Assembly: GCF_002188465.1 (NCBI RefSeq)
Contig: NZ_NINW01000022.1
Location: 62,001 to 126,000, forward strand
DNA from: Pigmentiphaga sp. NML080357
GTDB taxonomy: Bacteria > Pseudomonadota > Gammaproteobacteria > Burkholderiales > Burkholderiaceae_B
DNA length: 64,000 bases
Direction of reading: 5' to 3'
This document shows, piece after piece, positions 60,550 to 64,000 of this stretch. A program made the position numbers and the translations under genes. Each line of letters starts with the position of its first letter. Position 1 is the first letter of the stretch. Below the pieces are notes generated by a model. It was not told where the DNA came from and did not search any database. It saw only the letters and a program-made list of their open reading frames with translations.

Positions 60550-61766
60550 TGGCCGCGGGCGGGCCGCCCGGCGCGGCCTTCGACGTGGCGGTGATCGGCG
60601 CGGGCGCCGCCGGCATGATGTGCGCGGCGGTAGCCGGCCAGCGCGGCCGCCGCGTGGTCCTGATCGATCACGCGCGCAAGCTGGCCGAGAAGATACGGAT
60701 CTCGGGCGGGGGCCGGTGCAATTTCACCAACCTCGAGGCCGGCCCGGCCAATTTCATTTCCGACAATCCGCATTTCTGCCGGTCCGCGCTTTCGCGCTAC
60801 ACGCCCCGGGACTTCCTCGCGCTGGTCGCGCGGCATCGCATCGCCTGGCACGAGAAGCATCGCGGACAGCTGTTCTGCGACGAATCGAGCGAGGAGATCA
60901 TCCGCATGCTGCGCGCCGAATGCGACGCGGGCGGGGTGGCGTGGCGCATGCCCTGCACGGTCGAGGCGGTCGAAGCCGGGGCGGACGGGTTCGTCCTTCG
61001 CATCGGCTCGGGCGGCATCCGGGCCGCGCGCGTCGTCATCGCGACCGGAGGGTTGCCCATTCCGCAGATCGGCGCGTCAGATTTCGGCCTGCGCATCGCG
61101 CGCCAGTTCGGCCTGGGCATCGTGGAGCCACGTCCCGCGCTGGTGCCGCTGACGTTCGACGCCGCGTCGTGGAAGCCCTTCGTGCCGCTGGCCGGCATCG
61201 CGCTCGAAGTGGACATCCGCACGGGGGAGGGCAGGGGCGCGGCGTCGTTCCGGGAGGACTTGCTGTTCACCCACCGCGGCCTGTCCGGCCCCGCCGTGCT
61301 GCAGATTTCCAGTTATTGGCAGCCGGGCCGGCCCATCGTCGTCGACCTGGCGCCGGACGTGGATCTGGCCGCCGAGCTCATCGCCGCCAAGGCGGGGGGC
61401 CGGCAGCACCTGTCGAACGTGCTGGCGGGCATGGTGCCGCGCCGGCTGGCCGAGCAGTGGCTGACCGCGGCGCATCCGGGCATCGGCGAACGGCGCATCG
61501 CGGACCTTTCCGACAAGGTGCTGCGGGAAGTGGCCGACGGCATGAAGCGCTGGACACTGGTCCCGGCGGGCACCGAGGGATACAAGAAGGCCGAAGTCAT
61601 GCGCGGCGGCGTCGATACGCGGGCCCTGGACCAGCAGACCATGGAAGCCCGGGCCGTCCCCGGCCTGTATTTCATCGGCGAGGTGGTGGACGTGACGGGC
61701 TGGCTGGGCGGCTACAACTTCCAGTGGGCCTGGGCCTCGGGCGTGGCCTGCGGCCGGGCGGTCTGA
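60549..61766 (+). CDS. BaiN/HI0933-family NAD(P)/FAD-dependent oxidoreductase
   Basis: The 405-residue flavoprotein has the FAD motif VAVIGAGAAGMMCA (about residues 13-26). The family signature EKIRISGGGRCNFTN follows, then LLFTHRGLSGPAVLQISSYW, and the C-terminal GLYFIGEVVDVTGWLGGYNFQWAWASG. Members include flavin reductases of unsaturated ketones and poorly defined house-cleaning enzymes. The start overlaps the decarboxylase stop (TGATG), so they are co-translated. Its last 55 bp overlap the convergent LeuD-like gene. Confidence 0.92.
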   Translation: MAAGGPPGAAFDVAVIGAGAAGMMCAAVAGQRGRRVVLIDHARKLAEKIRISGGGRCNFTNLEAGPANFISDNPHFCRSALSRYTPRDFLALVARHRIAWHEKHRGQLFCDESSEEIIRMLRAECDAGGVAWRMPCTVEAVEAGADGFVLRIGSGGIRAARVVIATGGLPIPQIGASDFGLRIARQFGLGIVEPRPALVPLTFDAASWKPFVPLAGIALEVDIRTGEGRGAASFREDLLFTHRGLSGPAVLQISSYWQPGRPIVVDLAPDVDLAAELIAAKAGGRQHLSNVLAGMVPRRLAEQWLTAAHPGIGERRIADLSDKVLREVADGMKRWTLVPAGTEGYKKAEVMRGGVDTRALDQQTMEARAVPGLYFIGEVVDVTGWLGGYNFQWAWASGVACGRAV

Positions 61767-62317
61767 CTCTCCGGCACGTCGATCGGCTGCCGCATCTCCG
61801 GATGCGCCTCCAGCCACGTGGCCAGCATGCCGCGGGTGCCGCCGCGGCGGACCATGTCGGCCAGCAGCGGCGAGAGCGGCGGAACCTCGAAGCGGCGGGC
61901 GTTGTCGAGGTTCGCGATGGTGCCCTGGACGAAATCCACTTCTATGCGGTCGCCGGTACGAAAGGCCTCGCCGATCGCCGGCAGTCCGGTCAGGACCGGT
62001 ACGCCCTTGGAGATGGCGCCGCGCAGCGCCTTGTAGGGCATCGACACGCACAGTATCGACAGGCCCAGTGAGGCCATGGCGACGAAGCCCTGGAAATGGG
62101 GCTTGCCGCAGCCGAAGCGGGCGCCGGCGACGATGATGTCCCCGGGGCGCACCCGGTCCGGAAAATCCGGATCGACCATCCTGAGCAGCGCTGGGCGAAG
62201 CACGGCGGGATCGTCGACCCGCCGTATCGCCATGTCGAAGGGGATGAGCCCGTCGTCCAGCGGAATGTCGTCGCCGAAGACGTGGCAGTATCCGGAACGG
62301 CGGAAGGTGGTGGTCAT
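61712..62317 (-). CDS. LeuD/aconitase-type small subunit with altered active-site loop
   Basis: The 201-residue product has the swivel-domain fold of LeuD-like proteins: an early GDDIPLDDGLIPFDM region, then RPGDIIVAGARFGCG and NGIAG-like DFVQGTIANLDNARRFEVPPLS near the C-terminus. In LeuD, HacB and aconitase the loop after GCG reads SSREH/Q, which supplies a catalytic serine and a substrate-binding arginine. Here it is GCGKPHFQG (residues 69-77), with neither. The gene lies 10 bp after the large-subunit gene and ends inside the convergent flavoprotein gene. The substrate is unknown. Confidence 0.85.
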   Translation of the reverse strand: MTTTFRRSGYCHVFGDDIPLDDGLIPFDMAIRRVDDPAVLRPALLRMVDPDFPDRVRPGDIIVAGARFGCGKPHFQGFVAMASLGLSILCVSMPYKALRGAISKGVPVLTGLPAIGEAFRTGDRIEVDFVQGTIANLDNARRFEVPPLSPLLADMVRRGGTRGMLATWLEAHPEMRQPIDVPESQTARPQATPEAQAHWKL

Positions 62318-62327
62318 GGGAGTCCTT

Positions 62328-63599
62328 TCAGCCTGGAAGCAGCGCGCGCGGATCGGCGATCCGCCCGGCCAGAGCCGAGGCCGCCACGGTGAGCGGGCTG
62401 CCCAGGTAGGCCTGGGCTTCTTTGGAGCCGAAGCGGCCGGCATGGTTGGTGGCGGCGGTGGATATGGAGGTCTCGCCGTCGGCCAGCGGCCCCATCGCTC
62501 CCCCGGCGCACGGGCCGCAGCCTGCGGGCAGCACCATGGCGCCGGCTTGCTGGAAGATATCGACCAGTCCGTCGCGCGCGAGCCTGCGCGCGGTCTCGAC
62601 GGTGCCGGGGACGATGAACAGGCGCACGTGGGCCGCAATCCGGCGATCCCGCAGCAGTGCGGCGGCCCCGGCAAAATCCTCGTACATGCCGGAGCCGCAG
62701 GAGCCGATGTAGGCATGGTCCACGTGGCGGCCCGCGACTTCTCCTATTTCCACGCCCAGGTGCGGCCCGCCGGGCAGCGCGACCTGGGGGCCGATGCCGG
62801 CCAGGTCGAGCTCCAGTTCCGCCTCGAACTGCGCGTCGGCATCGCTGGCGAGGGCAAGGCCGCTTCGGGGCGCGTCCGCTGGCGGCGTGAACCATACGTT
62901 GGCAACGCCGATCTCCGTCAGCGAATTGCACAGGGCCACGCGTTCGGACAAGGGAAGCGCATCGATGTAGTCCCCGGCGAATTCGACGATGCGATTGTCG
63001 CAGGAGGGCAGCCTGCCGCTGGCGAACAGCGCGGTGACATAGAAGCCGACGTCGCGCGCGGTGACTCCCGCGCCCACCGGGCCGCGCAGCGACAACCGGA
63101 TGGTCGACGGCACCTGTTCCCATACCGTCCCGGTGGCGAGCACCGACACGATTTCCGGGCCGGGTGCGCAGGCCAGCGCGCCCACGGCGCCGAAGTTCGT
63201 GCAGTGCATGTCATAGCACGACAAGAACATGCCGGCACGGACCAGCCCCGCCTCGATGGGGAAAATGTGCCCGTGGCCGCCGCGCCCGGCGTCGAAGAAG
63301 CGGCCCACGCCCCACTCGCGCGCGATCCTGCGCAGGCGGGTGCCGCGCAGGGCACCGGCGGGACTGGAGTAGGCCACGTCATGGTCGGTCACGAACATCA
63401 CCCGTTCGGGATGCGCGATGCGCCGGTAGCCCAGGCTCGCCAGCTCGTTATAGGCCGATTCCACGAAGCCGTCGTGGATGATGACCAGCTCCGGATCGGG
63501 GGCGACGATATCCCCGGGGCGGACGTAAGGCTTGCCGCTGGCGCGGGCAAGGATTTTCTCGGCGGCGGTCTGGGGTACCCGGGTGGCGGCTTGGATCAT
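62328..63599 (-). CDS. LeuC/aconitase-type large subunit with altered substrate motifs
   Basis: The 423-residue product keeps the LeuC frame (AAEKILARASGKPYVRPGDIV, VLATGTVWEQVPSTIRLSLRG, GVTARDVGFYV). The three probable [4Fe-4S] ligands are Cys301 (YIGSCGSG), Cys361 and Cys364 (AGCGPCAGG). Substrate motifs differ: DSHT is DMHC (130-133), TNSR after the first cysteine is GSGM, and NRNF is ATNH (383-386). It should still be an Fe-S hydro-lyase, perhaps for a dicarboxylate without the usual second carboxylate contact. An RraA-type aldolase gene lies upstream on the same strand. Confidence 0.87.
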   Translation of the reverse strand: MIQAATRVPQTAAEKILARASGKPYVRPGDIVAPDPELVIIHDGFVESAYNELASLGYRRIAHPERVMFVTDHDVAYSSPAGALRGTRLRRIAREWGVGRFFDAGRGGHGHIFPIEAGLVRAGMFLSCYDMHCTNFGAVGALACAPGPEIVSVLATGTVWEQVPSTIRLSLRGPVGAGVTARDVGFYVTALFASGRLPSCDNRIVEFAGDYIDALPLSERVALCNSLTEIGVANVWFTPPADAPRSGLALASDADAQFEAELELDLAGIGPQVALPGGPHLGVEIGEVAGRHVDHAYIGSCGSGMYEDFAGAAALLRDRRIAAHVRLFIVPGTVETARRLARDGLVDIFQQAGAMVLPAGCGPCAGGAMGPLADGETSISTAATNHAGRFGSKEAQAYLGSPLTVAASALAGRIADPRALLPG

Positions 63600-63652: not shown

Positions 63653-64000
63653 TCAGGCGGGCTTGGCGGCCATGACGTCGGCGTAGCGTCCCCCGCCGTC
63701 CACGATGCGGGCCGCCTCGCGTTCGAAGGCCAGCCGCGCCTCCAGCCGCGCCATGAAGGCGGCCGCCTCGCCACGCGGGATCACGACGATGCCGTCGTCG
63801 TCCGCGCAGACGAGGTCGCCGGCATGCACGATTTGTCCGCCCACCGACACGGGGACGCCGGTTGCGCCGCGGCGGCCGCGGGCCCAGCCGCTGGCGACGG
63901 TGCCCCGGGCGAATACCGGGAAGCGGACGCGGCGTATCTCGGCGATGTCGCGCACGCGCGCGTTGCTGACGACGCCCGCGATGCCGCGCCGCTGGGCGAC
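63653..64000 (-). CDS. RraA-family protein (HMG/CHA aldolase or decarboxylase type), 5' end cut
   Basis: About 115 C-terminal residues are present; the N-terminus lies beyond 64000. The visible frame reads RRGIAGVVSNARVRDIAEIRRV, FPVFARGTVASGWARG, VSVGGQIVHAGDLVCADDDGIVVIPR, all typical of the RraA/4-hydroxy-4-methyl-2-oxoglutarate aldolase family. These enzymes cleave 2-oxo-4-hydroxy acids or decarboxylate oxaloacetate; some members instead inhibit RNase E. Beside a hydro-lyase pair the aldolase role is more likely. The spacing to the LeuC-like gene is 53 bp. Confidence 0.88.
   Translation of the reverse strand, partial: VAQRRGIAGVVSNARVRDIAEIRRVRFPVFARGTVASGWARGRRGATGVPVSVGGQIVHAGDLVCADDDGIVVIPRGEAAAFMARLEARLAFEREAARIVDGGGRYADVMAAKPA

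Follow-up and report, generated by a model that had tools for sequence, protein, structure and literature searches.

The window analysed here is a stretch of 64,000 nucleotides from Pigmentiphaga sp. NML080357 (contig NZ_NINW01000022.1, positions 62,001 to 126,000). Close to its end lie two adjacent genes encoding a LeuC/HacA-like large subunit (LS) and a LeuD-like small subunit (SS) of the aconitase superfamily (Table 1). In this study, we found that the pair keeps the cysteines of the iron-sulfur site and has exchanged the residues that align with the catalytic serine and an arginine of aconitase for a lysine and a histidine. This exchange extends, with variation, over a whole family of related genes, and the form seen in the window goes with genes for carbon-carbon (C-C) lyases. 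The clade-wide change, the lysine in place of the serine base and the tie to lyase genes are added here to an earlier note on this DNA, which had been made from the sequence alone.

The gene pair and its active-site residues

Both frames are open. The SS gene runs from an ATG at 62317 to 61712, and the 10 bp between LS and SS contain an AAAGGA stretch resembling a ribosome-binding site, so that the intact frames and operon spacing described in the earlier note hold. The same note had pointed to cluster cysteines 301, 361 and 364 of LS and to the changed motifs DMHC, GSGM and ATNH (LS) and KPHFQ (SS); our alignment agrees on the cysteines, and the motifs read as it described. In full, LS carries D130-M-H-C133, C301-G-S-G-M, G360-C-G-P-C364 and A383-T-N-H-A-G-R389, and the base loop of SS reads G71-K-P-H-F-Q76.

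Equivalences were taken from a profile alignment to MJ0499, MJ1003 and bovine aconitase, plus MAFFT, with SS residues numbered to aconitase through the SSRE motif common to LeuD chains. In bovine aconitase numbering, D130, M131, H132, N135, N225 and E229 of LS correspond to D165, S166, H167, N170, N258 and E262, the cysteines C301, C361 and C364 to C358, C421 and C424, and A383, T384 and R389 to N446, R447 and R452. K72, P73 and H74 of SS align at S642, S643 and R644. The equivalence of D72-H73 with D100-H101 is taken from the MAFFT alignment that includes MJ0499; against aconitase the profile alignment slips there, which also makes the assignment of H147 unsure. At the Asn170 column the window LS has Asn and MJ0499 has Thr. 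Hence LS retains D130, H132, N135, N225, E229, R389 and the pair D72-H73, and what is replaced comprises Ser166, Asn446, Arg447 and the Ser642-Ser643-Arg644 loop. Since the residues retained in LS belong to the acid and iron side, the loss falls on the base and distal-carboxylate side. Apart from Ser642, His101 and the cluster cysteines, the roles given to residues are general background on aconitase.

Family assignment points to the same superfamily and to none of its curated members. The nearest NCBIfam models are LeuC/HacA for LS and LeuD for SS, and neither subunit attains any of the curated cut-offs listed (19 families for LS, 7 for SS): LS reaches 316 bits with NF001614 (cut-off 385), 258, 141 and 290 bits with LEU2, leuC and TIGR02086 (cut-offs 611, 560 and 410) and 219 bits with HacA (cut-off 550), and SS reaches 76.6 bits with TIGR02087 (cut-off 109). 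SS has no Pfam match at an expectation value (E) of 0.1. In Foldseek searches, LS matched MJ0499 (4kp1) first, with a template-modelling (TM) score of 0.83, followed by MJ1003, AcnB, aconitase and aconitase X (AcnX), the last only at ranks 16-19 (TM 0.52-0.55). The best matches of SS were 3vba (TM 0.90-0.92 on the target), 1v7l and 2pkp. The AlphaFold2 (AF2) models were built for each subunit singly, from 13 and 14 family sequences, and reached a mean predicted local distance difference test (pLDDT) score of 75.4 for LS and 88.7 for SS; in LS the score drops below 50 at residues 1-5, 74-78, 105-110, 137-147, 246-248, 363-370 and 384-392. As modelled, the aconitase fold of both subunits is not in doubt, and the models leave the geometry of the active site unsettled. 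Membership in the superfamily is indicated by this fold with a separate swivel subunit and by the three cluster cysteines.

Three known types were considered for the pair and set aside: LeuCD (scores under the cut-offs; no SSREH, NRNF or DSHT motif), HacAB (score under the HacA cut-off; no SSRE loop in SS) and AcnX (low fold rank; Lys where AcnX-type enzymes have a serine base).

The window stops inside an RraA-like gene, and the upstream flank was read from the same genome (locus L052). The operon has the order TctC receptor, RraA, LS and SS, opposite a LysR gene. The same gene order is found in the four further near loci with long flanks, L035, L036, L037 and L100 (80-81% identity), and also in L092 (74%), with a different downstream gene. 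A thiamine diphosphate (ThDP) decarboxylase with an aldehyde dehydrogenase was rejected as partner of the window operon, being present in L035 and absent from L036, L037, L100 and L052. At its 3' end (window 61712-61766), SS overlaps a convergent HI0933-like gene, and the window SS exceeds its close orthologues by 17-20 aa.

Table 1. Coordinates of the gene pair, its active-site codons, the surrounding operon and the related sister pairs. Positions without a locus name refer to the window.
Feature	Position	Strand	Basis or remark
LS, LeuC/HacA-like large subunit, 423 aa	62328..63599	(-)	Pfam Aconitase 6.5e-60; NCBIfam; Foldseek
SS, LeuD-like small subunit, 201 aa	61712..62317	(-)	TIGR02087 below cut-off; AF2 and fold match
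SS Lys72 codon, place of aconitase Ser642	62102..62104	(-)	alignment
SS His74 codon, place of aconitase Arg644	62096..62098	(-)	alignment
LS D130-M-H-C133 (canonical members: D-S-H-T)	63201..63212	(-)	alignment
LS Cys301 = aconitase Cys358	62697..62699	(-)	alignment
LS Cys361-Gly-Pro-Cys364 = aconitase Cys421, Cys424	62508..62519	(-)	alignment
LS A383-T-N-H-A-G-R389; aconitase N446, R447 lost, R452 kept	62433..62453	(-)	alignment
RraA-like gene, 3' part	63653..64000	(-)	Pfam RraA-like; Arg-Asp pair kept
Full RraA-like gene, 213 aa, upstream in LS/SS operon	L052:3654-4295	(-)	flank of window genome
TctC-type receptor	L052:4292-5362	(-)	4-bp overlap with RraA-like gene
LS in L052 numbering	L052:2329-3600	(-)	
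SS in L052 numbering	L052:1713-2318	(-)	
LysR gene, divergent	L052:5424-6404		
Sister LeuCD-like pairs	L093, L094-L096, L097, L099		SS loops, where called, GS[NQ]H or GPMH

Conservation of the replaced site across the family

The loci examined contain 70 LS matches, and the 58 rows with at least 48% identity make up the family set; since L047 and L050 come from the opposite ends of a single contig and perhaps belong to one gene, the 58 rows may be 57 genes. Each of the three cluster cysteines is present in 57 of the 57 LS rows with a letter there, and D100, H101, D165, H167, N170, E262 and R452 are invariant among the rows with a letter at these columns (56 to 58 of 58). The Asn258 column holds N in 37 rows and S in 20. 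At the replaced positions, Ser166 has become M (35 rows), R (15), T (7) or F (1) and is never Ser, Asn446 has become A (39), T (14), S (2) or V (2), and Arg447 has become T (30), N (19), V (4), A (2) or G (2) and is never Arg. The earlier note had allowed for the usual Ser and Arg being supplied from shifted positions; none is found in the window's own subgroup, and an Arg does stand at the Ser166 column in the 15 rows just mentioned.

The small subunit tells the same story. An SS gene was called within 2 kb on the LS strand in 52 of the 58 rows, 33 of them with a G-K-x-H loop and 19 with G-x-K. These rows hold 51 distinct SS, one SS being common to the two tandem LS genes of L140 (G859:C37). 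A tblastn search recovered further SS genes in L100 (K-x-H) and in L086 and L147 (both x-K; that of L147 lies 6.5 kb off). All 54 distinct SS carry Lys in the base loop (34 G-K-x-H, 20 G-x-K), and SSRE occurs in none of the 54. L050 is a contig end, and no SS was found in the stretch examined of L139; L139 and the first LS of L141 were scored as x-K from their position on the tree, without an SS of their own located. Common, with variation, to 58 rows, the replacements exceed what chance would be expected to give.

Nei-Gojobori estimates against near orthologues show that both genes are under purifying selection. Compared with L035, L036 and L037, LS has dN 0.112-0.126 and dS 0.654-0.710, and SS has dN 0.164-0.183 and dS 0.640-0.709; LS against L092 gives dN 0.200 and dS 1.355. 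Consequently, a decaying copy or pseudogene is ruled out by dN/dS together with the conservation in 58 rows, in line with the view of the earlier note that the changes are not decay, which the recurrence of the operon in the window and in L035, L036, L037 and L100 bears out as well. A non-catalytic or regulatory protein is highly improbable too. Aconitases can moonlight as iron regulators and catalytic residues are indeed lost here, but a protein freed from catalysis fits poorly with an overall dN/dS of about 0.15-0.27, with cluster and acid residues in all LS rows with a letter, with up to four copies per genome and with an SS so regularly close by.

Matches in other genomes and loci rule out an oddity of a single genome. 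The genome searches scored the best 4 (order, class, phylum) or 6 (family) candidates per genome, which makes their counts lower bounds. In the genus, 8 of 11 genomes, the window genome included, match at E 1e-80. At E 1e-75, matches were found in 22 of 268 genomes of the taxonomic family, five of which (G481, G503, G594, G598, G615) have only sister types 39-42% identical, and in 27 of 399 genomes of the order, G917 only at 38%; the class sample (1 of 369) and the phylum sample (1 of 398) each returned the window genome itself. A scan of contigs gave 17 loci, among them ones from Burkholderiales, Oceaniglobus, Limimaricola and a Rhodobacteraceae metagenome-assembled genome (MAG), with one LeuC-like match at 29%, and the plasmid collection held one LS record at E 1e-60. 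Judged from these matches, the enzyme family is mainly one of Burkholderiales, with some Alphaproteobacteria. Two loci, L043 and L048, come from MAGs titled Bordetella parapertussis; the LS of L043 is nearly identical to those of L041 (a Burkholderiales MAG) and L042 (a lake bin), and the label of L043 looks wrong.

On LS trees built by a quick method, with the partial rows L047, L050 and L101 excluded, the enzyme family comes out as a single, fully supported clade. The branch leading to it is long, with 1.18 and 1.88 changes per column, and deep joins are unsure owing to such long branches. The x-K rows form a single clade of 23 and the K-x-H rows fall in two groups, so that the type switches at least two times. 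Next to the family stand the six sister rows of Table 1. In five of the six a PrpB-like gene of the isocitrate lyase family stands directly before LS, L093 being cut short, and some sister pairs are also accompanied by TauD and CaiB genes.

These sister rows bear on the possibility that the pair is a conventional LeuCD-type enzyme that hydrates or isomerises a di-acid (isopropylmalate, dimethylmalate, citramalate, maleate or citraconate), with other residues holding the carboxylates. LeuCD-like catabolic hydratases do exist: DmdAB hydrates dimethylmaleate and works with dimethylmalate lyase, a C-C lyase of the isocitrate-lyase family, and HbzIJ hydrates maleate. The likeness of the window pair to these two lies in their general description rather than in an aligned active site, and the lyase coupling of DmdAB is paralleled by the PrpB-like genes. 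The fold, the two-subunit layout and 29% identity to isopropylmalate isomerase (by structural alignment) agree with such an enzyme as well. However, the scores lie under every NCBIfam cut-off listed, LEU2, leuC, HacA and TIGR02086 included, the serine base, Arg447 and Arg644 are gone, and canonical motifs are present in three LeuC genes and one HacA-family pair elsewhere in the same genome. Altogether, we regard an orthodox enzyme as quite improbable.

Association with carbon-carbon lyase genes

Partner genes were sought by tblastn with lyase sequences in all family loci, up to 4 kb from LS and independently of gene calling. The K-x-H form goes with C-C lyase genes: 32 of the 34 K-x-H rows have one (RraA 14, BKACE 11, ThDP enzyme 4, HpcH/HpaI 3), on the LS strand in 27 of the 32, as against 1 of the 23 x-K rows (L147, a ThDP enzyme on the other strand). 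Based on called genes alone, the counts had been 30 of 34 and 1 of 23; two hidden genes were added afterwards. Among 272 more distant genes of the same loci there was no RraA, BKACE or HpcH gene, one ThDP gene, one PrpB gene and 22 Bug genes. A Fisher test of 28/32 versus 0/23 gave p 9e-12; it used earlier hand labels (L044 and L091 uncorrected, L147 counted as none) and ignores relatedness. With corrected labels, lyase type changes 8 times over all 60 labelled rows, 7 times within the enzyme family with "none" counted as a state, and, in the 30 K-x-H rows of the tree that stand beside a lyase gene, at least 4 times. Bug/TctC receptor genes, in turn, are a weak clue: at least one stands among about seven neighbours in 50 of 58 rows, and the 22 Bug genes among the distant ones argue against their being specific.

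The lyase link persists in Paraburkholderia sp. 22B1P (L155, L156), where SS is separated from LS by about 20 kb, lies on the opposite strand and immediately precedes a BKACE gene. Both subunits keep the signature, and their record labels are "aconitase family protein" (LS) and "hypothetical protein" (SS). This plasmid region also carries molybdenum hydroxylase genes.

The partner in the window operon is the RraA-type protein, one of 8 RraA genes in the genome (G000). In a Pseudomonas aldolase, an Arg-123, Asp-124 pair serves enolate and metal, and two motifs are distinguished for this enzyme type, according to PMC5065237. The Arg-Asp pair is kept in the window RraA and in 13 of 13 aligned partners, the L091 partner lying outside the alignment. 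Where 3NOJ has an Asp 21 residues upstream, 12 of the 13 have Gly and L081 has Ser; R-D-X2 is followed by Glu or Asp in 11 of 13 (His in L077, Ala in L076). The motifs of these enzymes are D/E-X20-R-D and G-X20-R-D-X2-E/D; most partners, and the window protein with G-X20-R-D-X2-E, come close to the second. For this partner, activity as a class II enzyme is probable. A hydratase feeding an RraA-fold aldolase is already familiar from LigJ/GalB, which makes the 4-hydroxy-2-oxo acid for LigK/PcmE. This module resembles the present one in its logic, although LigJ/GalB are not Fe-S proteins of the aconitase fold, and the window RraA scores 91.5 bits against a LigK/PcmE cut-off of 304.5; its substrate may differ. 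Another RraA-like protein has been reported as a dehydratase/decarboxylase (PMC8563752).

Proposed function of the pair

Our preferred reading, to which we give a probability of about 0.6, is that the pair is a catabolic [4Fe-4S] heterodimeric hydro-lyase that uses Lys72 and His74 in place of Ser642 and Arg644 and feeds the RraA-type enzyme. LS would hold the cluster through Cys301, Cys361 and Cys364, with the fourth iron acting as Lewis acid on an alpha-hydroxy carboxylate, and the retained side with D72-H73, D130, H132, E229 and R389 would handle the leaving group. SS would place Lys72 and His74 where the Ser642 base and Arg644 stood, altering deprotonation and the binding of the distal group. 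The product, an oxo- or hydroxy-acid, would be handed over to the co-encoded class II enzyme and split. Uptake of the substrate may be aided by the TctC-type receptor, and LysR may control the operon. The different substrate and mechanism proposed in the earlier note thus find their firm part in an active site altered in both subunits; a change of substrate and of mechanism is what this alteration suggests.

Several observations weigh against this reading. Related loci are not independent, the tree shows only two switches of active-site type, and the association is one of neighbourhood. The BKACE gene is on the opposite strand (divergent) in L130-L134, RraA lies 2.8 kb away in L078 and L079, and tblastn found no lyase within 4 kb of LS in the K-x-H rows L049 and L080; L049 has a TcuA-like flavoprotein and, farther off, a ThDP-like protein identified only by eye. 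No single product is implied, since the compounds handled by the lyase families differ. Gly in the metal-site column also occurs in 3 of the 7 other RraA proteins of the window genome (Asp or Glu in 4 of 7), and the Gly form is therefore not peculiar to LS/SS operons. Finally, the AF2 model of LS is weak precisely in the active-site loops.

A special case of the preferred reading is a dehydratase of dihydroxy or hydroxy-oxo acids, in which a vicinal diol acid would lose water and, in a single step and without rehydration, give an enol and from it a 2- or 3-oxo acid. IlvD/EDD enzymes remove water from diol acids in this way with another fold. All partner types use oxo acids (RraA/HpcH 4-hydroxy-2-oxo acids, ThDP decarboxylases 2-oxo acids, BKACE 3-oxo acids), and no serine alkoxide would be required if an oxo group activated the proton. 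On the other hand, the partner types differ and the sequence selects no diol, and we consider this special case unlikely.

Compared with described relatives, the hydro-lyase proposed here shares much of its frame and little of its base side. The isopropylmalate/citramalate isomerase MJ0499-MJ1277 (4kp1, 3vba) has the same two subunits, fold, three cysteines, D-H pair and R452; unlike the window pair, it has SSREH, DSHT, TNGR and NRNF where KPHFQ, DMHC, GSGM and ATNH stand here. Homoaconitase MJ1003-MJ1271 (4kp2, 2pkp) is alike in fold and layout, and MJ1003 has the GCGPC cysteine motif in common, whereas MJ1271 keeps GCGSSREQ and MJ1003 keeps TNGR and NRNF. AcnX, comprising cis-3-hydroxyproline and mevalonate-5-phosphate dehydratases, belongs to the same superfamily, has a non-canonical site and only dehydrates, but its fold match is far weaker. 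According to PMC8184944, aconitase uses Ser642 as its base and the Agrobacterium AcnX, which retains the serine, uses Ser70; the Lys clade departs from both.

To our knowledge, proton abstraction and distal-group binding by Lys and His would differ from every described member of the superfamily. Our literature search found nothing on the Lys-type clade among the papers listed, a weak absence given that subscription journals are mostly outside its coverage. We advance only tentatively the broader proposal that this clade is the first in the superfamily without a serine base, using a Lys of the swivel subunit (with His), perhaps via an imine of an oxo acid, and that it is an interchangeable dehydratase module, joined several times over to different C-C lyases. 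If true, a conserved Lys clade would show that the chemistry of Fe-S hydro-lyases can be built on another base, and a function could be given to genes whose present labels are "aconitase family protein" and "hypothetical protein". The tie between the form of the active site and the lyase partner would offer a direct handle for finding substrates. In L073 and L074 a RidA-like gene follows SS, recognised by eye and without an NCBIfam match at E 1e-20; in this subgroup it may hint at an imine or enamine as intermediate.

The window genome holds a second non-canonical LeuCD-like pair (L054:8462-10292, contig C1), whose LS reads DEGN and HQFNYQGR and whose SS reads HHNHVE, while L053 and L055 keep SSRE. 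Similar pairs on two Roseomonas plasmids (L157, L158) stand with receptor, flavin reductase and fumarate hydratase genes, and the gene layout of L054, judged by eye, is similar to theirs.

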